Shown here: positions 2,755 to 16,221 of the stretch, piece by piece
Layout of the letters: each line of letters opens with the position of its first letter
Numbering within the stretch: position 1 is the first letter of the stretch
IMG/VR virus record: IMGVR_UViG_3300042465_003547
Coordinates: 1 to 23,993 of that record
Source of the DNA: a virus
Length of the DNA: 23,993 nt
Reading direction: 5' to 3' (one strand)
Translations under genes and position numbers: made by a program
Notes under the pieces: model-generated
What the model was told of the DNA's origin: nothing
The model's input: the letters and a program-made list of their open reading frames with translations, nothing else
The model's database searches: none

Positions 2755-2941
2755 GGTTTGTTATAGCATGAAAAAATAAAAATAAAACTTGTTTACATTA
2801 CAGCAGTAAAAAATAAAAAATTTTGTGCAGACCCTGCGTATTTCTTAACGGAGAGCCCAAGGCCCTGATCCCCCGCCCTGAATGTCCACAGCCTAATGGC
2901 AACAGATTAATGTCTACGTCTGTCAACGCTTAAGCCATAGC

Positions 2942-2953
2942 GTTTACGTAAAC
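2942..2953. promoter_or_regulatory. Perfect palindrome GTTTACGTAAAC, candidate operator
   Basis: GTTTACGTAAAC is a perfect 12-base palindrome. The half-site GTTTAC recurs at 2791-2796 and, inverted, at 3193-3198, and the neighbouring GTATACGTATG (3183-3193) has a similar alternating core. Such spaced dyads often bind a phage repressor or activator. The regulator is not identified; the MarR-like protein at 6210-6539 is one candidate. Confidence 0.4.
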
Positions 2954-2970
2954 AAACATGAGACGAACTG

Positions 2971-3049
2971 TTTAGGCGATTTAGGCGGTTTGTTTTCAGG
3001 TCGCGTTGAGATTTTAGCTTTAGGCGGTTTAGGCGGTTTGTTTTCAGGT
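2971..3049. repeat. Two 31-bp direct repeats with tttaggcg sub-repeats (iteron-like)
   Basis: Copies lie at 2971-3001 and 3019-3049, offset by 48 bases, and differ at one position only (a or g at base 9). Each begins with two tandem 9-base units of the form tttaggcgR-like, followed by tttgttttcaggt, so four such units occur within 79 bases; a further ttaggcga lies at 3133-3140. Direct iterons of this kind are a hallmark of initiator binding at origins, but could equally be regulator sites. Confidence 0.7.
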
Positions 3050-3127
3050 TCGGTCACGCGTTTTGCGTGGGGGCAAATAACGCGCGCCCAGACGACCGCG
3101 CGCATAGTCTACCATTTTAATGGGTTA

Positions 3128-3147
3128 TGCTATTAGGCGATATAGCA
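3128..3147. repeat. Inverted repeat TGCTAT-8-ATAGCA
   Basis: TGCTAT (3128-3133) and ATAGCA (3142-3147) form a six-base dyad whose eight-base loop contains another taggcgat unit. It lies between the direct repeats and the early promoter. It could be a protein-binding dyad or a small hairpin. Confidence 0.35.
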
Positions 3148-3327
3148 AAGACGTTTTAAGTCGCTATACATTTTTACTGTATGTATACGTATGTAAACAT
3201 TTATATTTTTTTGACCTTTAATATATAAAAACAACTCAAATAGTATAACGCCCGGTTATCGCTCGTGTTTCCCGCGCCTAAGTCACAGACAAAGACAAGA
3301 TAAAAAATGACCTAATCAAAAATCTTG

Positions 3328-3356
3328 TTGCACTCGCCGCCGAATCGCGCTATCTT
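3328..3356 (+). promoter_or_regulatory. Early promoter, TTGCAC-17-TATCTT
   Basis: A sigma-70-type promoter with -35 TTGCAC (3328-3333), a 17-base spacer and -10 TATCTT (3351-3356). Predicted start of transcription is near 3363, about 20 bases before the first small gene at 3384. The -35 is embedded in TTGTTGCAC, which recurs in the proposed promoter of the replication operon. It would drive the plus-strand early operon. Confidence 0.6.
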
Positions 3357-3383
3357 GTGAGCATCGGTAACAGGATAAAGCCC

Positions 3384-3467
3384 ATGCCTACCATGATCGA
3401 CGCAATCCAAACCTTCGCCGCTTGTTTCGCCATTGCCGGCGCAATCGTCGCGGCGCTAACCGCCTAA
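3384..3467 (+). CDS. 27-aa hydrophobic micropeptide
   Basis: ATG at 3384 follows AGGA with an eight-base spacer and is the first start codon after the early promoter. The peptide begins MPTMIDAIQTF and continues with a run of small hydrophobic residues, FAIAGAIVAALTA, long enough for a single membrane helix. It may be a true early membrane peptide or a leader coupled to the next gene. The stop TAA is followed by ctgtaacaaa, a leader sequence repeated downstream. No homologue is recognised. Confidence 0.45.
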   Translation: MPTMIDAIQTFAACFAIAGAIVAALTA

Positions 3468-3488
3468 CTGTAACAAAGGAACAAGACA

Positions 3489-3731
3489 ATGAGATACACC
3501 GTCACAATATCTGAATTCGTAGACGCGCCCGACGCGGAAGAGCAAGCTCGCGCGACTTGGCACTATTTTGACGATCTTACCTTGTCGCAAGCATGGCGCA
3601 TTGTAGAGCGCCACGCGCGGCGCGGTTTCAATCGCTATGGTGGTGAAATCGCCCGCCAGAATTGGGGCGCGCGCGGCGGCGCGTTTCCGCATAACTATCG
3701 CGCCGCGATAATCCGGCTTGATACCTTCTAA
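3489..3731 (+). CDS. Hypothetical early protein (80 aa)
   Basis: An 80-residue protein starting MRYTVTISEF with AAAGGA about nine bases upstream. It has a beta-like N-terminus, an acidic helix (PDAEEQARATWHYFDDL), and a basic, aromatic C-terminal half rich in Arg, Asn and Gly. It could be a small DNA- or RNA-binding protein, but I recognise no family. It lies second in the early operon, 21 bases after the micropeptide gene and 30 bases before the clamp-like gene. A long antisense reading frame covers it but is not supported. Confidence 0.65.
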   Translation: MRYTVTISEFVDAPDAEEQARATWHYFDDLTLSQAWRIVERHARRGFNRYGGEIARQNWGARGGAFPHNYRAAIIRLDTF

Positions 3732-3761
3732 CTGTAACAAACACACACAGGAGTGAATACA

Positions 3762-4343
3762 ATGGAACTGAATGTAAAATATCTCAAAGCCGCCGCCATC
3801 GTCGCCAGCAAAGAAGAGACGCGCTATTATCTGAAGGGCGTGGCCGTGCAAGCGGGCGACAAGGGCGCGTTTATCGTGGCGACCGACGGCCATCGTGCAA
3901 TGGCCATCCGTCAAACGAGCGAGGCGCAGGCGCCAGTCGATATCATCATTCCGGCGGATATAATCGCCGGAATCAAGCCTAGCAAATATGATGAGCGCGC
4001 CGAATTGACGCAAGAGAGCGCGAATCGTTGGCGAATTGACTATTGCGGGACAAGCATTGTCTTTTCGCCGATTGACGGAACATTCCCCGAATGGCGGCGC
4101 GTTGTGCCGAAAGAAATTTCGGGCGAGACGGCGCAGTTTAATCCGGCGTACGTCGGCGATTTCGCCAAAGTAGCCAAAGCTCTCGTGGCCAAAGGCGATT
4201 GCGTCAAAATCGCCCAAAATGGCCAAGGCCCGGCGCTTGTCACGTTCGGCGATGACATTGACGGCTTTGGCCTTCTAATGCCGACGCGCGCTAATCAGGC
4301 GTCCACCGTATGGGATAGCGCGCCGTCATGGGCGACTGTCTGA
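3762..4343 (+). CDS. Sliding-clamp-like protein (DnaN-related, shortened, 193 aa)
   Basis: The sequence resembles parts of the bacterial DNA polymerase III beta clamp, which encircles DNA and tethers polymerase. Residues 38-50 (FIVATDGHRAMAI) match the conserved ATDGHR strand. Residues 60-70 (DIIIPADIIAG) match the following I-I/V-P block, and 105-117 (DGTFPEWRRVVPK) matches the DGxFPxYRRVLP motif. The C-terminus, with ALVTFGDDIDGFGLLMPTRAN, resembles the end of clamp domain III, including the terminal MPxR. At 193 residues it is about half of a 370-residue clamp, so domain I and part of the domain II/III junction seem absent. ATG 3762 has AGGAG eight bases upstream, which is better than the GTG at 3753. 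It sits in the early operon, far from the polymerase gene. Confidence 0.75.
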   Translation: MELNVKYLKAAAIVASKEETRYYLKGVAVQAGDKGAFIVATDGHRAMAIRQTSEAQAPVDIIIPADIIAGIKPSKYDERAELTQESANRWRIDYCGTSIVFSPIDGTFPEWRRVVPKEISGETAQFNPAYVGDFAKVAKALVAKGDCVKIAQNGQGPALVTFGDDIDGFGLLMPTRANQASTVWDSAPSWATV

Positions 4344-4352
4344 TAACCACTG

Positions 4353-4373
4353 GCGTCGCGCCATGCGCGGCGC
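4353..4373 (+). other. Strong intercistronic hairpin (9-bp stem, 3-nt loop)
   Basis: GCGTCGCGC (4353-4361) pairs fully with GCGCGGCGC (4365-4373), with one G-U pair, around a CAT loop. It lies between the clamp-like gene and the next one, 32 bases before the next ATG. No T-run follows, so it is not a classical terminator; it may protect the upstream message or pause RNA polymerase. Confidence 0.5.
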
Positions 4374-4405
4374 TATCATAACAAACGCACATAGGAGAGA
4401 CTACA

Positions 4406-4660
4406 ATGAGCTATAATGGATGGACCAACTACGCGACGTGGCGCGTGAACCTCGAAATGTTCGACGGAATGGTAATCGACCCGCTGAACGAATGGTCGCC
4501 TGATCCGACAACCTTTGCAAACCAGCTTATAGACTGGGCGCGCGACATGATCGAAGAAACTTCGACGGAAGGCATAGCGCGCGACTATGCGCTCGCATTC
4601 CTCCAAGATGTTAACTGGCGCGAGATAGCCCAACATTTGCTCGCGGCCAATGCAGACTAA
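4406..4660 (+). CDS. DUF7249-like early phage protein (84 aa)
   Basis: An 84-residue protein starting MSYNGWTNYATWRVNLEMFD. The NGWTNxxTWxVNL opening is typical of a common small phage family (DUF7249) that occurs in early regions of many phages and has no established role. The rest is acidic and helical, with a DWARDMIEE segment and a C-terminal FLQDVNWREIAQHLL that recurs as NWxEIA in relatives. A GGAG element lies about ten bases before the ATG. The C-terminus overlaps the start of the next gene by 11 bases. It is probably a soluble host-interaction protein, but this is inference. Confidence 0.82.
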   Translation: MSYNGWTNYATWRVNLEMFDGMVIDPLNEWSPDPTTFANQLIDWARDMIEETSTEGIARDYALAFLQDVNWREIAQHLLAANAD

Positions 4661-4817
4661 CCCGCGCCCCTTATGGTCCGAGATCATGCGCGTGCGACGC
4701 GAGATACAGGACGCACTTTGGCAAGGCGACGTAGACCGCGCCGCCGCGCTCTATCGCGAGCTAGACCGGCTCGAAATGCTGCAATCATATGGAGAAACCC
4801 ACGATGTTGACCATTGA
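4650..4817 (+). CDS. Hypothetical helical protein (55 aa)
   Basis: A 55-residue protein starting MQTNPRPLWSEIM and continuing as one long charged amphipathic helix (RREIQDALWQGDVDRAAALY, then RELDRLEMLQ), probably a small coiled coil. The ATG overlaps the end of the preceding gene by 11 bases, and the gene overlaps the next by 14. It is too short to assign. Tight overlap on both sides and natural amino-acid composition support it being real. Confidence 0.6.
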   Translation: MQTNPRPLWSEIMRVRREIQDALWQGDVDRAAALYRELDRLEMLQSYGETHDVDH

Positions 4818-4968
4818 ACTGGATCAGGATGTTTTCGAGGCGCTACGTGACCATCTCGAGACGCTAAACCCGCGCCCGCCGCTGTTAGAGCTTCTGCGGG
4901 CGCAAGTAAATGACATTTACGACGAAGAATCGGAAAAATACTGGATGGAGAAATGGTCCAATGGCTAA
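4804..4968 (+). CDS. Hypothetical acidic protein (54 aa)
   Basis: A 54-residue acidic protein starting MLTIELDQDVFEAL, with a proline-rich turn (NPRPP), then a helix and a C-terminal KYWMEKWSNG. The ATG at 4804 follows GGAGAAA with a suitable spacing and overlaps the previous gene by 14 bases. Its stop shares eight bases with the next gene. No known family is recognised. Confidence 0.6.
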   Translation: MLTIELDQDVFEALRDHLETLNPRPPLLELLRAQVNDIYDEESEKYWMEKWSNG

Positions 4969-5254
4969 TCTGGAATACTACTTCGAAGACCTTCAGGTCT
5001 TACCCGGCTGTAACATCGTCGCCAGTGGCGTCGCGGACGTAAACTTCCAGCTAGAGCCGCCCGACCCCGACAGTGGCTGGCCACGGTGGACGGTCTATGA
5101 TCTAGAAATAACCGGGATCGCGCTGGACCCGCTCGCGCTCGGCGAGACGGGGCTTATGCTCGACACGAAGCACCCCCTTTACCCCCTGATTGAAGAAGCC
5201 CTGTATAAGGACGACAAACTTGTAGAGGCTTGTCTTAACCATGAAGACGACTGA
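4961..5254 (+). CDS. Hypothetical acidic protein (97 aa)
   Basis: The protein starts MANLEYYFEDLQVLPGCN and has alternating strand-like segments, including NFQLEPPDPDSGWPRWTVYD and EITGIALDPLALGETG, and an acidic C-terminus ending NHEDD. A compact mostly-beta domain is likely. I take ATG 4961 rather than earlier in-frame codons because GGAG lies ten bases upstream and the gene then overlaps its neighbour by only eight bases. Phages often encode similar WPRWxVYDLEI proteins of unknown function. The end overlaps the following micropeptide gene by 14 bases. Confidence 0.7.
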   Translation: MANLEYYFEDLQVLPGCNIVASGVADVNFQLEPPDPDSGWPRWTVYDLEITGIALDPLALGETGLMLDTKHPLYPLIEEALYKDDKLVEACLNHEDD

Positions 5255-5327
5255 GGCCATCATATTGGGCGCGGCCGTCGCCGCGTCCGCGCTAATCCTT
5301 ATCCTGTCATACATCGTGGGAGGCTAG
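5241..5327 (+). CDS. 28-aa single-TM micropeptide
   Basis: MKTTEAIILGAAVAASALIL followed by ILSYIVGG forms one continuous hydrophobic helix with a lysine near the start, as in phage membrane micropeptides. It overlaps the previous gene by 14 bases, and the next ATG follows the stop by four bases. The stretch GTGGGAGG at its end supplies the Shine-Dalgarno site of the next gene. Function is unknown; small inner-membrane peptides in early operons may act in superinfection exclusion or host inhibition. Confidence 0.5.
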   Translation: MKTTEAIILGAAVAASALILILSYIVGG

Positions 5328-5331
5328 AGAC

Positions 5332-5508
5332 ATGGGCTACATGAAAGAACTATGGGAAGACTACGCGCCCTACCGGGCGGCGCTTAAGGTGCTATCAGAG
5401 GGCGCGCTGACGGTCATGCTAGGCAATGAGACAAATGAGCTACGCATGGACCTGATACGGGCCGAACTGGAGGCACGCAGATGCGACGCGTCTACCTTAC
5501 CAAAGTAA
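5332..5508 (+). CDS. Hypothetical helical protein (58 aa)
   Basis: A 58-residue protein starting MGYMKELWEDYAPYRAALKV and predicted helical throughout. It is acidic in the first part and basic at the end (LEARRCDAST). GGGAGG lies nine bases before the ATG. It overlaps the next gene by 28 bases. Related short WEDYAPYR-type sequences occur in phages, but I cannot attach a function. Confidence 0.6.
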   Translation: MGYMKELWEDYAPYRAALKVLSEGALTVMLGNETNELRMDLIRAELEARRCDASTLPK

Positions 5509-5795
5509 CATGGCAGAATGAGCGTAAGACACTGACCATGTACGACGCCGACGGCTTGCCGTGGGGTCAGATTTACCTGCCAAAGGCCGACGACCGCGCC
5601 TTGTTCGTGGCCGCACGGGCGCTGACGTTCGCAATCGAGGGAGATTTCAGTGGACGAGATAGACCAAAAGATCATGCGGATCATCGAGGAAGAAGCAAAA
5701 GCGAACGGCACGACCGTGGGCGTGCTGATCAACCACGACAGGATGATGTGGCGCTGCGCGATCCGTCAACGGATAATGTGGAGGGCGCGGACTGA
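5481..5795 (+). CDS. Hypothetical protein with out-of-frame overlapping tail (104 aa)
   Basis: The start at 5481 has a strong GGAGG seven bases upstream. Residues 1-55 (MRRVYLTKVTWQNERKTLTM, then YDADGLPWGQIYLP and ALTFAIEGDF) look like a small beta domain. From about residue 57 on the sequence becomes a low-complexity, charged stretch rich in Arg, Asp and Ser because it reads through the next gene, which starts at 5650, in another frame. The conserved part is probably the first 55 residues. The long tail may be genuine overprinting or the result of a lost stop codon or frameshift. Confidence 0.5.
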   Translation: MRRVYLTKVTWQNERKTLTMYDADGLPWGQIYLPKADDRALFVAARALTFAIEGDFSGRDRPKDHADHRGRSKSERHDRGRADQPRQDDVALRDPSTDNVEGAD

Positions 5796-5886
5796 ACTGA
5801 AGGCGTCATATCCAGCTATCGGGCGCGTTATGCGCCGCACGCACGCCGCCGTCCTGCGGGGAGTCCGCACCTATGAAGAAAGATAA
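5650..5886 (+). CDS. DnaA domain IV-like DNA-binding protein (78 aa)
   Basis: The C-terminal 45 residues resemble DnaA domain IV, the helix-turn-helix that binds DnaA boxes. ELKASYPAIGRVMRRTHAAVLRGVRTYE has the spacing of the DnaA motif, in which SLxEIGxxFGxRDHTTVLHAVRxI carries the signature HTTVLxxVR; here it is HAAVLRGVR (about 65-73). The N-terminal 25 residues are an acidic helix. No ATPase domain is present. GTG 5650 follows GAGGGAG with a six-base spacer, better than any ATG nearby. A stand-alone domain IV could target the phage origin or compete with host DnaA. Family placement rests on the motif alone. Confidence 0.6.
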   Translation: MDEIDQKIMRIIEEEAKANGTTVGVLINHDRMMWRCAIRQRIMWRARTELKASYPAIGRVMRRTHAAVLRGVRTYEER

Positions 5887-5941
5887 TGCCATGGCAATAA
5901 TCATAGCCGTCCTGATCGAAATACTGTTGGGGGTAAAATGA
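5873..5941 (+). CDS. 22-aa hydrophobic micropeptide
   Basis: MKKDNAMAIIIAVLIEILLG followed by VK is a charged start followed by a 14-residue hydrophobic run. It overlaps the previous gene by 14 bases and shares ATGA with the next start, an arrangement seen across this operon. It may be a membrane peptide or only a coupling leader for the next gene. Evidence for translation is positional. Confidence 0.35.
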   Translation: MKKDNAMAIIIAVLIEILLGVK

Positions 5942-6138
5942 CCTTCGAAGAGCAATATGAGGCCATACAGGCCGTCATTCCTGACCTGCCTAGGGACATA
6001 CCGGCCTATCAGGTAAACCCGCCCCTGTGGGCTTTCTGGCGCACTGTAGAGCCATCCGCGCCAGAACATCCCATAATGACCGAACAGGAGATCGTGCGCC
6101 GGCTCGACCTTCTTTACATGGGCGACGGCGCGTGCTAA
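5938..6138 (+). CDS. Hypothetical protein (66 aa)
   Basis: A 66-residue acidic protein starting MTFEEQYEAIQAVIPDLPRD, then a proline/tryptophan segment (NPPLWAFWRTVEP) and a C-terminal helix (TEQEIVRRLDLLYMG). ATG 5938 shares ATGA with the preceding micropeptide, and GGGGG lies about six bases upstream. It is the last gene before a strong terminator. No family is recognised. Confidence 0.6.
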   Translation: MTFEEQYEAIQAVIPDLPRDIPAYQVNPPLWAFWRTVEPSAPEHPIMTEQEIVRRLDLLYMGDGAC

Positions 6139-6162
6139 AGCGTGACGCGTTTTCTCCCCAAC

Positions 6163-6193
6163 TGCCCGGCATAAAAACCGGGCGTTTTCTTTC
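6163..6193 (+). terminator. Rho-independent terminator ahead of the MarR-like gene
   Basis: GCCCGG (6164-6169) and CCGGGC (6178-6183) form a six-base GC stem, extended by a T-G pair, around an A-rich eight-base loop, followed by gttttcttt. It lies 25 bases after the stop of the last early gene and 16 bases before the ATG of the regulator at 6210. Confidence 0.75.
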
Positions 6194-6209
6194 CCTGAAA
6201 GGTAGTCTA

Positions 6210-6539
6210 ATGGAAAATATACACAGACTAGTAAAAATATTCCGCAGAATGAGCCCCTACATGACTTCCGCACAGATGGAATTTATTCTGACGGTGGCGC
6301 TGTATCCGGGCGAGGGGACCGTGTCCTATGCAAACCGGCTGAAGATAGAGAAAGCCGCCGCGTCGCATCTCATCTCGCGGCTGGGCTCGCGCGGGCGCAC
6401 CTACAGCAAGGGCGTTAGAGTGGAGGGGCTGGGGTTGCTAACACAGAAACCGTCGCCAACCGACGCGCGGGCGACAGAGGTCTACCTAAGCCCAAAAGGT
6501 GAGAAGTTGGTCCGGGTTCTATTGACCGCGCTGACGTAG
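6210..6539 (+). CDS. MarR-like winged-helix regulator (109 aa)
   Basis: MarR proteins bind DNA as dimers through a winged helix. Here residues 16-35 (YMTSAQMEFILTVALYPGEG) and 38-60 (VSYANRLKIEKAAASHLISR) give the helices, the second being the recognition helix. A basic hairpin (RGRTYSKGVRVEGLGLL) and strand TEVYLSPKGEKLVRVLL form the wing; the LSPKGEKL ending is common in MarR proteins. ATG 6210 follows AAAGG at a seven-base spacing, and the longer upstream frame lies in another gene. The usual N- and C-terminal dimer helices are short, so the protein is smaller than typical (about 140 aa). It sits behind a terminator and converges on a minus-strand gene, overlapping it by 21 bases. Confidence 0.7.
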   Translation: MENIHRLVKIFRRMSPYMTSAQMEFILTVALYPGEGTVSYANRLKIEKAAASHLISRLGSRGRTYSKGVRVEGLGLLTQKPSPTDARATEVYLSPKGEKLVRVLLTALT

Positions 6540-7092: not shown

Positions 7093-7274
7093 CCGAGCCC
7101 GTCCAGTAAGGCCCGAGCCTGCTCATGCGCGTGGCAAAGCTGATCGATCAGCTCGGACGAACACTCATCGTCCCCCGGACTGGACGCCCAGTCAAGGTAA
7201 AGTTCGACGGCCTCGGTCAAGTCACCCAGATGTTTTAGGAATATTGGATACACGTTCAGCGAGGGAGACGACAT
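7071..7274 (-). CDS. Hypothetical acidic protein (67 aa)
   Basis: A 67-residue acidic helical protein starting MSSPSLNVYPIFLKHLGDL, followed by TEAVELYLDWASSPGDDE and a second helix with two cysteines and His-Glu-Gln. It starts 53 bases inside the end of the primase-helicase gene, with AAGGAT and AGGG upstream. It would be co-transcribed with the replication genes. No family is recognised. Confidence 0.6.
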   Translation of the reverse strand: MSSPSLNVYPIFLKHLGDLTEAVELYLDWASSPGDDECSSELIDQLCHAHEQARALLDGLGYGSEPN

Positions 7275-9549
7275 TTTCCCTATCCTTCCCTTCGCCCGTT
7301 ATGTCGGCCAGCGCACGCCTTACGTCCGACCGGTTCCATTCCGCCAGACGCGGTTTCACAAAACAATGCTTTTTTGACGGCAGATCTGACGAGTAACAGA
7401 GCCCCTTGTCAACCCAGCCCGCTTCCTTCAGCGCATGGAACAGCGCCGGGCGCACGACACGAGTAGCGTTGTCCATCGGATCGTTCAGCTTGGCCAGGAA
7501 CGTATGCCACGGCCCGCTGATAACATCGACGTTAAACGGCGCTTCGCCCTTCTCGATCATGTGGTAGACGTGGCTCTCAGCGTTACTCATGCCGACATAG
7601 ATCAGTTTAGTCTTGTATTCCGTCATGGGCGGGATCGCCTGCGGGTTGAACTTCGACACATCCCGCGCACGCAGCCAGCCTGTCACGGCCTCGAAGCCGC
7701 CCTTGTGATACCAGCCCCACATTGCCTGCGCCTCGCCCGGCGTCATCTTGGGCGCGTCGGACCACACGCAGAACCATCGCCGGTCGTCAGAGTCGAGCGT
7801 GATCGGCATGTCCTCGTTGGTAAACGCCAGCATGAACAGCCGGTTAACCATTTGATAAGGATGCAGGCCCTTGCGGTTAATAACGAGCGTCTCCGGCGGC
7901 GCGGCGATGATCGGTTTCAGCTTGTTTGCGAGCGCGCGGCGGTCCTTGGCGTCGGGCTCCTTCAGCTCGTTAAGAACGACGATCTCCGACTCTAGCTGGT
8001 AACCCCACTGGCTCGTCAGGCTGTCGTTGTCGATCAGGCCCTTGTTCTTCTCGTGCGGCCCGCACACGCTCCAGATGAACGGTGCCCACATGGTGTCCTT
8101 ACCGCAGCCGCCCTTGCCGCCGTGCAGGATCGCATGGTTGATCTTTATGTTCGGGTGCTGGGCCTTATAGGCCATCACATCCCATATATGCTCCAGCTCA
8201 TGCTCGTCGGGAATGAGACGTTGGCAGTGGTCGATCCACCGCTGCGGGTCGCCCGCGCTCTTGATCTCCGGCCGGGCGTCGCGCCACATGTTGCCGTAGA
8301 CGAGCCCGTCCTTCGTGACCATCCAGTCCTCGCCGGCTGCGTAGGTCAGCCCGTGCAGGGCGTAAGCGCCCTTGTCCTCACGGAATGTGTCGAACCACGA
8401 CGACGCCTCGATGCGGCGCTTCTTGCCCTCAGAGTTAGACACCACGCACTCAACGCCCTTGAACAGAGCGTTGAACGCCTTGCGGCTGATCTCGCTGCAC
8501 GTATGCCGGTCAAAGTAAGCGTCGTCTGAAATGATATAGGCGAAGCGGTCGTGCCACTCGCTGCGCGATTCACGGCCAGCCTGCTTGCGCTCGGTCTCGG
8601 CGATGATCTCGGCCGCCACGTCAGGGTTGGCTTTCGTCGGCTTCAGGCTGCTAAGCGGCTTCATCGCCTCGGCGATCAGTTCCTCGCGGATCCCCGGCCT
8701 GTGCTTCGGGCCGCCCTGCTCGGCGACCCAGTCGCAGAAGTAATTACTGTCAAGATGTTCGCAGTGGCCATGGTAGCAACAGAACGCACGCGACTGCGGC
8801 ATGTAGCGGGCTTCTAACTGGCCGTCTGTATGCTCGGCATGGTTCGGACAGACAACGCCGCACCAGCCCTCACTGTTTACGCGTGACGTAACAAGCCCCT
8901 GCTCGTTAAGCCACGCCATCACGTCATCGTTTCCGGTATCCGTAAGACGTAAATGATTCGCGCGGCTGCTTTCTTCGTCGGGCGTAACGCCAAGCGCCTC
9001 GCATATCTCTTGCAGTGTATACTCAATGTCTGGATCGAATACCGCCTCACGGCACTCGAACGCCTCGCGTCCGGGCTTCTGGTTTACGCTGCCCGGAAGA
9101 CGGCAATTACGCACGGCGTTAGTCGCGCCCGGATCGGTGTAGCCTGCACGCGCTATAGCTGACAGTGCGGCGCAGTGCTGCTCAACCGTAGGTTGATCGC
9201 TGTAGGCATACCAGTATTGGAAGTTGCCGGGGCTCGTCTCAACGATAGCAGTCGGCGCGAGCGGCGGCGTCTTCGATTTCGTGCCGATGTCGTCTAACAT
9301 CATAAACAGAACATGCGTGCAGTTCGCCACGCTGGCGGACGGCTTGCCGTTCTTGAATCGGTCGATGATGAACGAGCCGGTATTGATGAACCAGCTCTCA
9401 CCATCCCTGCGCTTGTGCGATGGCATGTAAGCCGGCCATGTGTAGCGCGGCGTTCCGTCAGCGTGCAGCTTGCCGGTGTCGATCTGTTTGACGATCAGCG
9501 CTGTCTCGCCTTCCGGAGCGAGGCTTGTAAAGTATTCAAAGAGTGTCAT
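7222..9549 (-). CDS. Primase-helicase: RepB-like primase plus DUF5906 helicase (775 aa)
   Basis: This should unwind the fork and make primers. The N-terminal part (about 60-180) matches RepB-like archaeo-eukaryotic primases: LFMMLDDIGTK (80-91) gives a catalytic Asp pair, SPGNFQYWY (106-114) the middle motif, and NAVRNCRLPGSVNQK (144-158) the conserved Arg and LPGSxN. A Cys/His cluster at 230-263 may bind zinc. The C-terminal part is an SF3-like helicase of the DUF5906 type, with Walker A GGKGGCGKDT (477-486), acidic EIVVLNELKE (522-531) and FMLAFTNEDMPITLDSDDRRW (572-592) as sensor region. The start shares ATGA with the polymerase stop, so both genes are coupled. Length is normal for the fused type. 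Confidence 0.9.
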   Translation of the reverse strand: MTLFEYFTSLAPEGETALIVKQIDTGKLHADGTPRYTWPAYMPSHKRRDGESWFINTGSFIIDRFKNGKPSASVANCTHVLFMMLDDIGTKSKTPPLAPTAIVETSPGNFQYWYAYSDQPTVEQHCAALSAIARAGYTDPGATNAVRNCRLPGSVNQKPGREAFECREAVFDPDIEYTLQEICEALGVTPDEESSRANHLRLTDTGNDDVMAWLNEQGLVTSRVNSEGWCGVVCPNHAEHTDGQLEARYMPQSRAFCCYHGHCEHLDSNYFCDWVAEQGGPKHRPGIREELIAEAMKPLSSLKPTKANPDVAAEIIAETERKQAGRESRSEWHDRFAYIISDDAYFDRHTCSEISRKAFNALFKGVECVVSNSEGKKRRIEASSWFDTFREDKGAYALHGLTYAAGEDWMVTKDGLVYGNMWRDARPEIKSAGDPQRWIDHCQRLIPDEHELEHIWDVMAYKAQHPNIKINHAILHGGKGGCGKDTMWAPFIWSVCGPHEKNKGLIDNDSLTSQWGYQLESEIVVLNELKEPDAKDRRALANKLKPIIAAPPETLVINRKGLHPYQMVNRLFMLAFTNEDMPITLDSDDRRWFCVWSDAPKMTPGEAQAMWGWYHKGGFEAVTGWLRARDVSKFNPQAIPPMTEYKTKLIYVGMSNAESHVYHMIEKGEAPFNVDVISGPWHTFLAKLNDPMDNATRVVRPALFHALKEAGWVDKGLCYSSDLPSKKHCFVKPRLAEWNRSDVRRALADITGEGKDRENVVSLAERVSNIPKTSG

Positions 9550-11471
9550 TTGCCATATCTCTCCATCACGCTCGCTTCTACGTCGAGCGGCAAGCCTTCT
9601 GCCCAGAACGGCGGCGTTGTCATTACTTCTTCTAATCTTGCTTTGGCTTCTTCCGGCTGGTCAGTCTCAATAACGATCTCGTCGTGAACATGCAGAACCA
9701 CACCGTCAAGACGGCGAAGAGCCTCACGAAGAAGGTCATGGGCGGTCGCTTGTGTGACGTTCTCACAAGCCAAGCCGGGCCATAGACGCGCACGGGGCCA
9801 TTCCTTCGCATCTGCGGCAGGCTTCCATGACGCCTTCGCGTATGTAATGCCGCCATCGTCTTCAAATCGGGCGAACGGATAGCAAAGCACACGGCCAGAC
9901 GGCAGGCAATACCAAAGATGCTTGCCGTCTGCGAGGTAGGTTATCTTTCCTGCGGTGAACTCTTTTCCTTTGTTGCGCAGCGCACGAATGTATGCAACTT
10001 CCAGATCACGCCAGAACGGCGGGGCCCAGTCGTTCGCCAACCGCCAGCCGTTTACCATCTTGCGCGCCTGCGGCTCGGGCAGGTTCACACCATAGACGCG
10101 GCCCATCGCAGCGAACGCGCCGATACCGCCGCCGAATCCGCAAGCCAGTTCCTGCACCTTGCCGATCTGACGCTGTTCCTTGTTCACGTCGTCATACGAC
10201 ACGTTGAATGTCTTCGCGGCATTGACTTTGTAAACATCGAGACCTTCGCGGAAATGCTGTAGCTTCTTGTCGCCCCTGTCGGACAACCACGGATTGACGC
10301 GGCCTTCAATGGCTGACCAGTCAGCGACGACGAGCGAAGAACCTTTAGCCGGAATCAGAGCGGGCCGCAGCATACCACGCAATACGTCTGTAACGCGCCG
10401 TCCGTATTTCGGCACGATGGCGTGGCCTCGCACCATCGCGTGTCGCACGCTGGCGGGATCATCTGCGCATTTACGTGTGAAGTTGTGAACCTGCGCGCCG
10501 TAACTAGACGCGCGTCCTGTGGCGGACCCGCCGGCAAAGACAAAAGCGCCTCTAACGCGACCGTCAGCGCAAGCCAGATTGCGAAGACGATCAAACTTTG
10601 CCACGCTCGACGCCCAAAGGTCATCGGCGCACTGTATGACTTCTTTAACATCGGGAGGCACCTCTTCCGGGTCATCCATAGCTAACAGATTGGCGCGGAC
10701 AGTCTTGTCAATCGACATCTTGTCTTCGCGCTGCATGAGCTTCAGCGCTTCAGGGCCAAGCCTTTCTTGCACCCACAGTCGCATACGAGGACTTCGAACG
10801 CTCGTAACCTCTCCGCCCGTGATCTCGACAACCGCAGCCTCGATCTCTCGAAGCTCGTCAGCCGCATACTTGACCGCCGCGCTGCATAGATTGATATCGA
10901 CAAGAACACCACGATCATTAATGCGCTCGTTAACATGGTAGTCCTCCAGTTCCTCGGGCGTCAGATCACGCATTGCTTGGCTGGCGGCGCGCATGGTCCG
11001 CACGTCCTGAAGCGCATATGCGCCTAACTCTGGTAATAAGTCATCTTTGTAAGGCGGTATACAACACGCTCTCACTAGCGCCGCGCCTCTATGATCCTTA
11101 CGCATATTTAACCCGGCAAACCTACCAACATCTTCTAAAGCCCCCGGCATACAGTTGGCGCGCGCTTGCGCGGCTGTGCAATACCAAGATTCAAGCGGCG
11201 GACGGGCCACGCCGTATTTGGGGCAAACGACATGCCATGTAATTAGTCGGTCAAAGGCCGCATTATGCGCCCGTATCTCACCCCTCGCCACAAAATGATC
11301 TTTCATGCGCTGCGGCATAGGTTCGTGATGCCACCATAACTGGACTTCTTCATCGCCAAACGCATATGCCGCGCACAGCATTTCCGTAGTATTGTGCATG
11401 GCGTAATTATAGCCGCCTCTTTCCGGCAGGTCACATTCACTTCGCGTTTCATAATCAAGCCAAAGTATCAT
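9546..11471 (-). CDS. DNA polymerase, family A (641 aa)
   Basis: The replicative polymerase, with an N-terminal 3'-5' exonuclease and a C-terminal polymerase domain. Exo I is WLDYET (D6, E8), Exo II AHNAAFD (N70, D74) and Exo III YALQD (Y152, D156), so proofreading should work. Polymerase motif A is VVADWSAIEG (D384, E389), motif B RQIGKVQELACGFGG (R434, K438) and motif C LHVHDEIV (H596, D597, E598). At the site equivalent to E. coli Phe762 it has Leu442, and Phe446 replaces Tyr766. No 5'-3' exonuclease is present. The start overlaps the HNH gene stop by four bases, and the end overlaps the primase-helicase start by four bases. Confidence 0.95.
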   Translation of the reverse strand: MILWLDYETRSECDLPERGGYNYAMHNTTEMLCAAYAFGDEEVQLWWHHEPMPQRMKDHFVARGEIRAHNAAFDRLITWHVVCPKYGVARPPLESWYCTAAQARANCMPGALEDVGRFAGLNMRKDHRGAALVRACCIPPYKDDLLPELGAYALQDVRTMRAASQAMRDLTPEELEDYHVNERINDRGVLVDINLCSAAVKYAADELREIEAAVVEITGGEVTSVRSPRMRLWVQERLGPEALKLMQREDKMSIDKTVRANLLAMDDPEEVPPDVKEVIQCADDLWASSVAKFDRLRNLACADGRVRGAFVFAGGSATGRASSYGAQVHNFTRKCADDPASVRHAMVRGHAIVPKYGRRVTDVLRGMLRPALIPAKGSSLVVADWSAIEGRVNPWLSDRGDKKLQHFREGLDVYKVNAAKTFNVSYDDVNKEQRQIGKVQELACGFGGGIGAFAAMGRVYGVNLPEPQARKMVNGWRLANDWAPPFWRDLEVAYIRALRNKGKEFTAGKITYLADGKHLWYCLPSGRVLCYPFARFEDDGGITYAKASWKPAADAKEWPRARLWPGLACENVTQATAHDLLREALRRLDGVVLHVHDEIVIETDQPEEAKARLEEVMTTPPFWAEGLPLDVEASVMERYGK

Positions 11472-13550: not shown

Positions 13551-14627
13551 CTACTTCACCTCTAGTTTAGAGAAGGCCCGACGAATGTCAGAGCCCAGCG
13601 TAACCACGGCAGGCCGGGGATCGCTTTCCGGTGCTATCGTGGTACCTGTTGAGATGGAAACGAAAAGTTCCTTCGGTAGTTTGCCGCAGATCTTCTCGAC
13701 CTGCGCAGGGCTCTTCAGTTCCATCAAATCCTCGGCAGCAAATCCCATTTCTGCAAGAGTGCTTCTTGCTTTGTCAGGATCGGCCCACTGTCGCGTAGCT
13801 CGCTTGGGGACGAGCTTCCATCCGTCGACAGGCGCTTTATTTTCCAGCATGGTCTGCGCAAGCGCGCGAACGCTCTTCGCCCATTCTTCCGCAAGTATCG
13901 CCATTGCCAGTGCATAGTTCATCTTCTCAGGGTCGATTGCCTTAACCTTCGTCGAGATCGCGCGCTCCAACTGCCCCGTGATCGCAGGGCACGTCGGCTT
14001 CGCAGGGCACCAGCGACAATGATCGCCGTGCTTCAACGGCGCGTCAGGACGGAAGGACATCTGCACAGCGTCGAACAGCGTGCGCTCGAACGCCTTCACG
14101 CGACCGGGCGTTGTAAGCCATCGTCTTACATACGGCGGCTGGACGATGATAAGCTCTATCTCGTCCACGCCCTCAACCGCCCAGCGAGCCTCGGGCGTGC
14201 GCATAGCAGCAGCGGCGTAGAACAAAAGTTGATGGTTCTCTTCAGCGTCCACCGCCACCCCATCACCAAACTTCCAATCAAGAACCACTGCACGACGGCC
14301 AATTCGGCCAATGAGGTCAACTGATCCGAATACACCGGCAAGGAATCCTCCAAAATGCACCGTAAGCTCGGTCTGGAACTCCAGCTCACGATTAGGGTCA
14401 ATTTCGTTTAACGCGTCGAGAGCAAACTTCAGTTTCTCGTTATTGTCAAAGTCATCGACCTTCATGTCCAACGACAGGATCGCGTGCATTGCGTTGTGCA
14501 AACGCGTGCCTTCTTTGGCGTGTACGCTGGACGGGCTGGGCGGGACTTTGTCAACAAGCGCCCGCGAGCCGGGGCAGTTGATAAGACGTTTAGCGGATGA
14601 TCCGCCAACGATAGCGCTGTGTGTCAT
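13551..14627 (-). CDS. DUF2800-type PD-(D/E)XK nuclease with likely Fe-S cluster (358 aa)
   Basis: Proteins of this group are RecB/Cas4-like exonucleases thought to resect DNA in phage recombination and replication. The visible core fits: SSAKRLINCPGS (10-21) with C18, a KEGTRLH helix (38-44) with E39 and H44, GVFGSVDLIG (98-107) with D104, VVLDWKFGDG (114-123) with D117 and K119, and Q133 in NHQLLFYAA. C204, C207 and C213 (CRWCPAKPTC) together with C18 could hold a 4Fe-4S cluster as in Cas4 and AddB. The start at 14627 has an AAGG element upstream and follows a promoter-like sequence; the earlier codon at 14681 would read through that promoter. Confidence 0.88.
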   Translation of the reverse strand: MTHSAIVGGSSAKRLINCPGSRALVDKVPPSPSSVHAKEGTRLHNAMHAILSLDMKVDDFDNNEKLKFALDALNEIDPNRELEFQTELTVHFGGFLAGVFGSVDLIGRIGRRAVVLDWKFGDGVAVDAEENHQLLFYAAAAMRTPEARWAVEGVDEIELIIVQPPYVRRWLTTPGRVKAFERTLFDAVQMSFRPDAPLKHGDHCRWCPAKPTCPAITGQLERAISTKVKAIDPEKMNYALAMAILAEEWAKSVRALAQTMLENKAPVDGWKLVPKRATRQWADPDKARSTLAEMGFAAEDLMELKSPAQVEKICGKLPKELFVSISTGTTIAPESDPRPAVVTLGSDIRRAFSKLEVK

Positions 14628-14649
14628 TACCTTACCTTTCTTACAGCCA

Positions 14650-14678
14650 ACCCTAGACAGGTTTGCGGAGTTGTGCAA
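14650..14678 (-). promoter_or_regulatory. Replication-operon promoter, TTGCAC-17-TAGGGT
   Basis: On the minus strand TTGCAC (14678-14673), a 17-base spacer and TAGGGT (14655-14650) give a sigma-70-like promoter, predicted start near 14643, about 16 bases before the ATG at 14627. The -35 lies within TTGTTGCAC, identical to the early promoter at 3325-3333. The -10 is poor, so an activator may be needed. Confidence 0.45.
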
Positions 14679-14689
14679 CAAATATTTTT

Positions 14690-15007
14690 ATGCTGGAGAA
14701 AGAAATCGAAGCCTACTTCGTCAAGTCTGTGAAGGCGCTCGGCGGTATTGCTTACAAGTTCAATAGCTTGTCAAACCGCGGCGTTAGCGACCGTATCGTC
14801 GTGTTGCCAAACGGCGAGGCGTGGTTCATCGAACTGAAAACGGAGCGCGGGCGTCTGTCCGCGTTGCAGAAAATATTCGCAAGCGACATGCGCAGGCTTA
14901 ACCAGAACTACGCGTGTCTTAATTCCATAGAAGCTGTGGACAGATGGACTTACGACCGTATCAACACGAAGCCGCCGACTTCCTCTTCGCCCACGACAGA
15001 GCCATGA
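14690..15007 (+). CDS. VRR-NUC domain nuclease (105 aa)
   Basis: VRR-NUC domains are small PD-(D/E)XK endonucleases often linked to SNF2-type helicases in phages. Here NRGVSDRIVVLPNG (29-42) has G31 and D34, WFIELKTERGRLS (45-57) has the E48-x-K50 pair, and ALQ (58-60) has the following glutamine. Length of 105 fits the stand-alone form. ATG 14690 is the first good start; an in-frame codon at 14663 would begin inside the divergent promoter. No strong Shine-Dalgarno site is visible. The last 64 bases overlap the helicase gene. Confidence 0.85.
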   Translation: MLEKEIEAYFVKSVKALGGIAYKFNSLSNRGVSDRIVVLPNGEAWFIELKTERGRLSALQKIFASDMRRLNQNYACLNSIEAVDRWTYDRINTKPPTSSSPTTEP

Positions 15008-16221
15008 TCCTCGCGCCGGTTGGTGCAGGAAAAACAGCAATCACGCTCACGGCCATGTCGGACATGACCGCGCGCGGACACTGTGACCGCTGGCTCGTGC
15101 TTGCGCCCAAGCGCGTCTGCCTGTCCGTCTGGCCGGTCGAGGTCAAGAAATGGGCCGATCATCTGAAACTGGCGGTTGCAGTCGGCACGCCGGCACAACG
15201 TAAGGCTGCGTTCGAATCAGACGCGGACATCGTCGTCACCAACTACGACAACATCCCGTCGATAGATCCGACGCATTTTGACGGTATCGTCTTTGATGAG
15301 CTGACACGGCTGAAAAATCCGTCCGGTAAGCGGTTTAAGTTCCTGCTGAAAATCCTCGATCAGTTTCAGATCCGCTGGGGGTTAACCGGATCCTTCACGT
15401 CGAACGGCCTCGAAGACGTATTCGGTCAGTGCAAGGTCGTCGATCAGTCGCTGTTGGGCCGCAGCAAGGGCGCGTTCCTGCAACAGTATTTTTACTGCAT
15501 AAACCGCGAGTATGGCCAGTGGGAGCCGCTGCCCGACGCGCTGCCGAGGGTCATGGAAGCGATCAAGCCGGCGACCTATGTGCTGGAGCCGGGCGAGTAT
15601 AAGGACAAGCTGCCGTCGCTCCACGTCGTCGAGATGCGTTGCGACATGGACATGACGCCATACAATACACTTAAAAAAGAGTTCGTGCTGGAGCTGGGCC
15701 AGACGATCACAGCGCCGACAGCGGCCGTCGTGACGCAGAAACTACAGCAACTCGCGGGCGGGTTTGTCTACGGTGAGGCCGGTCCTGAGTGGCTGTCGGA
15801 CCACAAGTTCGACATGCTCGATGACATTCTCGAAGAGAACCAGCACGCCAACACCATCGTCGTTTACAACTACAAGGAAGAGCTAGCCGAGCTGAAGCGG
15901 CGCTATAAGCTGACCACTATCGACGAAGACAACGCTGTGGATAACTGGAATGCCGGCAAGATCCAACTGCTGGCAATCCACCCCAAGAGCGCCGGGCACG
16001 GGCTCAATCTACAGTTTGGCGGCAACAAGATCGTCTTTCTGTCACTGCCGTGGTCGCTGGAGCTTTACGAGCAGACCATCGGCCGGCTGCACCGAAGCGG
16101 TCAGACGCGCGACGTGTGGTGTTACGTCATCCTCTGTAATAAAACTATTGACGAGCGGATATTCGAAAGTCTAAAAGACAAGCGAACATTGGCTGAGATC
16201 GCCTTGGAGGAACTGAAGTGA
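14944..16221 (+). CDS. SNF2-like superfamily 2 helicase (425 aa)
   Basis: A short SF2 ATPase that probably remodels or unwinds DNA with the VRR-NUC nuclease. Motifs: Q-like LRPYQ (3-7), Walker A APVGAGKT (24-31), motif II DELT (118-121), motif III LTGS (147-150), motif V HPKSAGHGLNLQ (346-357) and motif VI QTIGRLHRSGQ (377-387). The last is characteristic of SNF2-type proteins. No extra domains are present and the length matches phage versions. The start is coded inside the end of the VRR-NUC gene, 64 bases before its stop. The end shares GTGA with the next gene. Confidence 0.92.
   Translation: MDLRPYQHEAADFLFAHDRAMILAPVGAGKTAITLTAMSDMTARGHCDRWLVLAPKRVCLSVWPVEVKKWADHLKLAVAVGTPAQRKAAFESDADIVVTNYDNIPSIDPTHFDGIVFDELTRLKNPSGKRFKFLLKILDQFQIRWGLTGSFTSNGLEDVFGQCKVVDQSLLGRSKGAFLQQYFYCINREYGQWEPLPDALPRVMEAIKPATYVLEPGEYKDKLPSLHVVEMRCDMDMTPYNTLKKEFVLELGQTITAPTAAVVTQKLQQLAGGFVYGEAGPEWLSDHKFDMLDDILEENQHANTIVVYNYKEELAELKRRYKLTTIDEDNAVDNWNAGKIQLLAIHPKSAGHGLNLQFGGNKIVFLSLPWSLELYEQTIGRLHRSGQTRDVWCYVILCNKTIDERIFESLKDKRTLAEIALEELK

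Follow-up and report, generated by a model that had tools for sequence, protein, structure and literature searches.

A half-length beta-clamp homologue, carried by hundreds of phages, that retains the partner-binding pocket of DnaN

The half-clamp gene and its surroundings

Positions 3762–4343 of the window (the whole 23,993-nucleotide stretch of IMG/VR virus record IMGVR_UViG_3300042465_003547 analysed here) contain a + strand gene, stop codon included, for a 193-residue protein that we refer to as a half-clamp. The gene was defined by an ORF call, Pfam and PHROG matches and purifying selection, and an AGGAG ribosome-binding site (3749–3753, + strand) is present at normal spacing 5′ of the ATG. 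This site ends a 17-nt leader, ACAAAC.CACA.AGGAG (3737–3753), a second copy of which (4381–4397) precedes the next gene; at the tolerance used, the three matches to the leader were a number reached by no shuffle. Comparison with four close IMG/VR relatives (91–95% protein identity) gave dN/dS values of 0.065–0.14, as expected of a working gene.

The half-clamp gene is the second in a run of small + strand genes (3489–6539) located 3′ of an AT-rich gap, and membership in an early operon is plausible. The neighbouring 84-residue protein (4406–4660) gave a weak match to DUF7249 that fell under the cut-off. The gap itself, of ∼700 bases (2755–3488), separates divergent terminase genes from the + strand operon and includes a 31-nt repeat (2971–3001 and 3019–3049, 97% identical); it is a candidate control region or origin. 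Genes for a primase (7222–9549), a family-A polymerase (9546–11471) and a DUF2800 nuclease (13551–14681) lie on the strand opposite the half-clamp, and an SNF2 helicase is encoded at 14944–16221. In phage BcepC6B the half-clamp gene directly adjoins the polymerase gene, and in other phages it stands alone amid structural genes that are encoded on the other strand. No consistent partner gene adjoined the half-clamp across 43 loci; what recurs is limited to short proteins without known function, one of which lies downstream of the half-clamp in 9 of the 43.

Clamp homology, domain architecture and family

The ORF encodes a true homologue of DnaN, with similarity far above chance. Pfam DNA_pol3_beta_2 matches residues 8–110 (E=2e-9), the TIGR00663 dnaN model scores 57 bits (under its full-length cut-off of 138 bits), and a sequence search of the PDB returned beta clamps, down to E=3e-10, with no match to PCNA. 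A profile of the half-clamp family matched E. coli DnaN at E=5e-15. The best Foldseek matches were DnaN structures (E=7e-10, TM 0.75 by query length) together with viral proteins of similar length; the DnaN alignment spans 257 columns and therefore bridges a stretch missing from the phage protein. An earlier note had described the ORF as a half-length clamp-like protein and had named profile comparison with DnaN and fold prediction as the tests that could overturn this description; both recovered the clamp fold.

Half-clamps were aligned with E. coli DnaN and 40 other DnaN sequences to define what has been kept. In E. coli beta numbering, used throughout, two stretches are present: ∼126–253, the complete domain II, and ∼319–366, the second half of domain III. 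Residues 1–125 (domain I) and ∼254–318 (the first half of domain III) are absent. Domain II corresponds to half-clamp residues 1–118 (3762–4115, + strand), as indicated by Pfam, alignments, AlphaFold and the family profile. The second half of domain III, a helix followed by three strands, corresponds to residues 125–176 (4134–4289, + strand) and carries the features FN..Y..D..K and V.MP.R; it is supported by alignments, AlphaFold and a Pfam match in a relative, which covers positions 71–121 only of the 121-position domain III model. The earlier note was thus right that domain I is missing. It also placed a loss in "much of the middle", which holds for the first half of domain III but not for domain II, and the retained end of domain III that it recognized extends beyond the last residues.

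An AlphaFold2 model built with 13 sequences (mean pLDDT 86, pTM 0.82) contains two beta-alpha-beta-beta-beta units, then a helix and three strands, equivalent to 1.5 clamp domains; the third unit has no first strand and the tail (178–187) is disordered. Compared with DnaN (TIGR00663; Pfam PF00712/PF02767/PF02768), the half-clamp shares the fold, domain II, the second half of domain III and the partner pocket, but in sequence and model it comprises 193 residues and 1.5 domains rather than ∼366 residues and three domains, and it lacks domain I, the first half of domain III, both interface regions and the pore residues R197, K198 and R205. PCNA and T4 gp45 form trimers with two full domains per protomer (PMC4858162); their clamp repeat units, and in principle also a pocket for partners, are shared with the half-clamp, which in the model has only 1.5 domains. 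A clamp ring has 12 repeat units and each half-clamp supplies three, so a ring would need four protomers; the trimer given as one example in the earlier note is not the expected way to close it.

The protein belongs to an established phage family. It matched PHROG 3007 at E=5e-33 (residues 1–178 to positions 3–187 of 190), whose members have the same length class and architecture and differ from it only by sequence divergence. By tblastn, half-clamps occur in 183 phage records, and scanning IMG/VR with a profile placed them on at least 422 contigs. Each of the 107 viral ORFs that were examined was half-length (158–320 codons stop to stop), with none long enough for a full clamp, and domain I was sought in 38 carrier records with a single weak match (1/38) under the cut-off. 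Isolated phages with half-clamps, ∼28–34% identical to the window protein, infect E. coli, Salmonella, Klebsiella, Acinetobacter and Burkholderia, and several are in the BASEL collection. The best 80 matches of a genome scan included no prophage copy, all being full-length DnaN of Alphaproteobacteria. Among plasmid matches, one (an Acinetobacter plasmid) covers most of the query, one is short and unassigned, and most others are chromosome-type dnaN; a defence-library scan returned no match.

Members of the family have been annotated before as "DNA polymerase III beta subunit (fragment)", for example Bcep781 gp15 (whose record carries "DNA Pol III b subunit fragment") and Shigella phage EP23 p08. 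Despite the match of their members to clamp sequence, PHROG 3007 and PHROG 12598 both carry the name RusA-like Holliday junction resolvase, and this label now also appears in RefSeq phage annotations. Comparison of PHROG 3007 with the RusA of Bcep781 gave a BLASTP E value of 42 and an hhalign probability of 0.1, and we reject the resolvase label: the family is already catalogued, but mislabelled. A literature search outside subscription journals found no functional study of half-clamps, only mentions in genome tables such as that of a 151-residue protein of Erythrobacter phage R6L.

Retention of the partner pocket and loss of ring features

Eighteen residues of E. coli beta have been published as forming its pocket (PMC11139829), and all 18 fall inside the two stretches that half-clamps keep. 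By alignment, the window protein matches E. coli exactly at 14 of them. Five pocket pieces on the + strand were placed by alignments and the published pocket: RYYL (3822–3833; R152–L155), TDGHRA (3882–3899; T172–L177), PEWRRV (4086–4103; P242–V247), NPAY (4140–4151; N320 and Y323) and LLMPTR (4272–4289; V360–R365). Identity to E. coli, averaged over 54 non-redundant half-clamps, was 0.79 in the pocket vs. 0.18 in 144 other aligned columns (p=2e-8). Because pocket residues are conserved in all clamps, a stricter test was applied that considers only columns at least 90% invariant among 41 DnaN sequences; half-clamps kept 0.87 of such columns in the pocket vs. 0.46 elsewhere (p=6e-4). Both p-values are indicative only, given the shared ancestry of the members. 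V344 and M364 are pocket positions that lack conservation; since R152, Y153 and Y154 make contacts with DNA as well, peptide binding is not the whole reason for their retention. Variant pockets occur as well: in one member (L018) TDGHRL is replaced by TTGAIL, in another (L008) the pocket glycine is replaced by D, and such members may have lost or altered ligand binding.

A functionless, decayed remnant of a captured dnaN would also be shorter than DnaN. The chance of this is negligible in our judgement, since the dN/dS values strongly disfavour it, the truncation is identical in all viral relatives examined, and the pocket has been kept across deep divergence.

Published dimer contacts of the E. 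coli clamp lie in domain I (I78, F106, K74, R96, R103 and R105) and in the first half of domain III (I272, L273 and E298–E304). The domain I contacts and I272, L273 and E298 correspond to gap columns in 91–100% of half-clamps. Few residues align at 300–304, with almost nothing shared and E304 kept in 2% of half-clamps, and these look like alignment spill-over. Judged by the alignments, the regions that supply both native sides of the ring-closing interface are absent. Residues lining the DNA-contacting pore have also changed. R197 and K198 have a pore role in the E. coli clamp (PMC5042465); R197, K198 and R205 are 100% basic in the DnaN set, vs. 22%, 6% and 17% in half-clamps, and the K198 position is acidic in 76%. 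In addition, the core of the third unit has been remodelled, with hydrophobic residues lost at 325, 331 and 359 and gained at 330, 334 and 351.

At the same time, half-clamps have acquired basic residues elsewhere. K or R is present at position 140 in 81% and at position 329 in 83% of half-clamps, vs. 0% at both in the DnaN set; position 332 is K or R in 63%, and the net charge of all three helices is positive. Placed by helix pattern, the new lysines should be exposed on the inner helices and keep the concave face basic, and those at 140 and 329 suggest contact with nucleic acid or with an acidic partner.

Herpesvirus UL42 is a monomeric processivity factor of two full clamp-fold domains that has a basic concave face and leaves DNA unencircled. 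It is unrelated in sequence, and the half-clamp has 1.5 domains, but the basic face and possible DNA contact make a working likeness possible. By analogy, a half-clamp monomer could lie on DNA by its concave face and use its pocket to tether a motif-bearing (host) polymerase or repair enzyme. Conserved new lysines on positive helices, a retained pocket and the gene's position beside a DNA polymerase gene in BcepC6B all suit such an arrangement, which would be of use to phages dependent on host Pol III. It is harder to reconcile with the loss of the invariant DnaN pore residues, K198 to an acid, and the facing of the lysines comes from the helix pattern and not from coordinates. We regard this open clamp as unlikely, though far from negligible.

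Binding partners, the phage polymerase and possible function

The search for canonical clamp-binding motifs covered the window and the proteomes of six complete phages that carry half-clamps. Zero to two were found per proteome, approximately the number expected by chance, and none was in a polymerase; the ligands of half-clamps are therefore probably host proteins. In Escherichia phage Bas78 (PQ850625.1), a 62-residue protein encoded between recombination genes (36050–36238) has QMKLF near its start. This is possibly a clamp-binding motif, although chance is also conceivable (2 found, 0.9 expected).

Association with the phage polymerase is loose. Half-clamp and polymerase occurred together in 22 of 38 records, many of these fragments, and 1552 phage records have this polymerase type vs. 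183 with half-clamps. No family A, B or C polymerase was detected in the complete genomes of Bas78, AB4P2 and Tbat1_6 at the sensitivity used, and these phages presumably need host Pol III. No clamp gene is listed in the examined 23-kb portion of MW202483, the closest isolated relative of the polymerase. Motif counts at chance level and three complete carriers with no detectable polymerase make a dedicated clamp for the family-A polymerase unlikely. A role as its cognate processivity factor is likewise disfavoured by the lack of a canonical motif in the polymerase and the loose co-occurrence, and further weakened by the polymerase being far commoner without a half-clamp. The earlier note had stressed that family-A polymerases are not normally thought to use a DnaN-type clamp. 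That contrast carries little weight given carriers without a detectable polymerase and the record counts, and E. coli Pol I has been reported to bind the beta clamp.

These data also bear on a minimal ring of four half-clamps, in which four protomers of three units would make a 12-unit phage processivity clamp closed by a new interface. The three beta-alpha-beta-beta-beta-like units per protomer fit the arithmetic, and a new interface could need a remodelled third-unit core such as the one observed. Both native interface regions are missing, however, as is the first strand of the third unit in the model, and the polymerase evidence (no canonical motif, far more polymerase than half-clamp records, carriers with no detectable polymerase) argues against it; we consider such a tetramer improbable. 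A phage-specific adaptor or transcription role has a precedent in T4 gp45, since the T4 clamp can activate late transcription (PMC2988020). In a half-clamp, the pocket or the remodelled third unit would bind a phage protein through a non-canonical motif, in keeping with a gene position that is variable and often apart from replication genes. With no consistent adjoining partner gene and a pocket whose strong conservation suits a standard class of ligand, we give this role little chance.

The two functional proposals of the earlier note, a different oligomer or a decoy for host clamp partners, were reasonable. The evidence leans toward a pocket protein that does not form a ring, as nothing has been preserved so well as the pocket and the dimer-interface regions and the pore residues that touch DNA are gone. 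Our preferred reading, held tentatively and at somewhat less than even confidence, is that the half-clamp is a non-encircling protein that binds host clamp-binding motifs as a competitor or recruiter. It would be a small, soluble, ring-less derivative of the beta clamp, probably monomeric, acting outside the host clamp ring. Its pocket would bind the QLxLF type of clamp-binding motif carried by host proteins such as Pol III alpha, the loader delta subunit, Pol II/IV/V, MutS/MutL or Hda. The half-clamp would compete for such partners, or divert them off the host clamp, and thereby alter replication or repair in the host during early infection, with competition assumed over recruitment.

A beta mutant that stays monomeric (I272A/L273A) binds ∼50-fold more tightly to loader delta than dimeric beta does but cannot tether Pol III, so a pocket protein without a ring would be expected to compete strongly and to perform poorly as a clamp. 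The effect may be inhibition, recruitment to phage DNA or a block selective for repair or error-prone polymerases. Simply starving the host replisome is less likely, as carriers that presumably need host Pol III would themselves suffer if it were sequestered outright. Further points against the pocket reading are the retained basic concave face, the position of the BcepC6B gene beside a polymerase gene, the lack of conservation at V344 and M364, and the DNA contacts of R152, Y153 and Y154. Phage Twort Gp168 is a clamp inhibitor that binds the DNA channel of the clamp (PMC11139829). Half-clamps would likewise be expected to disturb host clamp traffic, but by mimicking the clamp and binding its partners.

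At a minimum, a family named "RusA-like Holliday junction resolvase" throughout databases needs relabelling. The proposed function can be tested directly in members from phages already in laboratory collections (BASEL), and if it is correct the half-clamp would provide a single-pocket, ring-free tool with which to measure clamp-binding motifs. More broadly, though with similarly limited confidence, half-clamps, a family widespread in phages, may be detached clamp pockets that capture or redirect host replication and repair enzymes by clamp mimicry. If so, phages would repeatedly have kept a clamp pared down to its docking pocket, a route opposite to that of known inhibitors, which bind the clamp.
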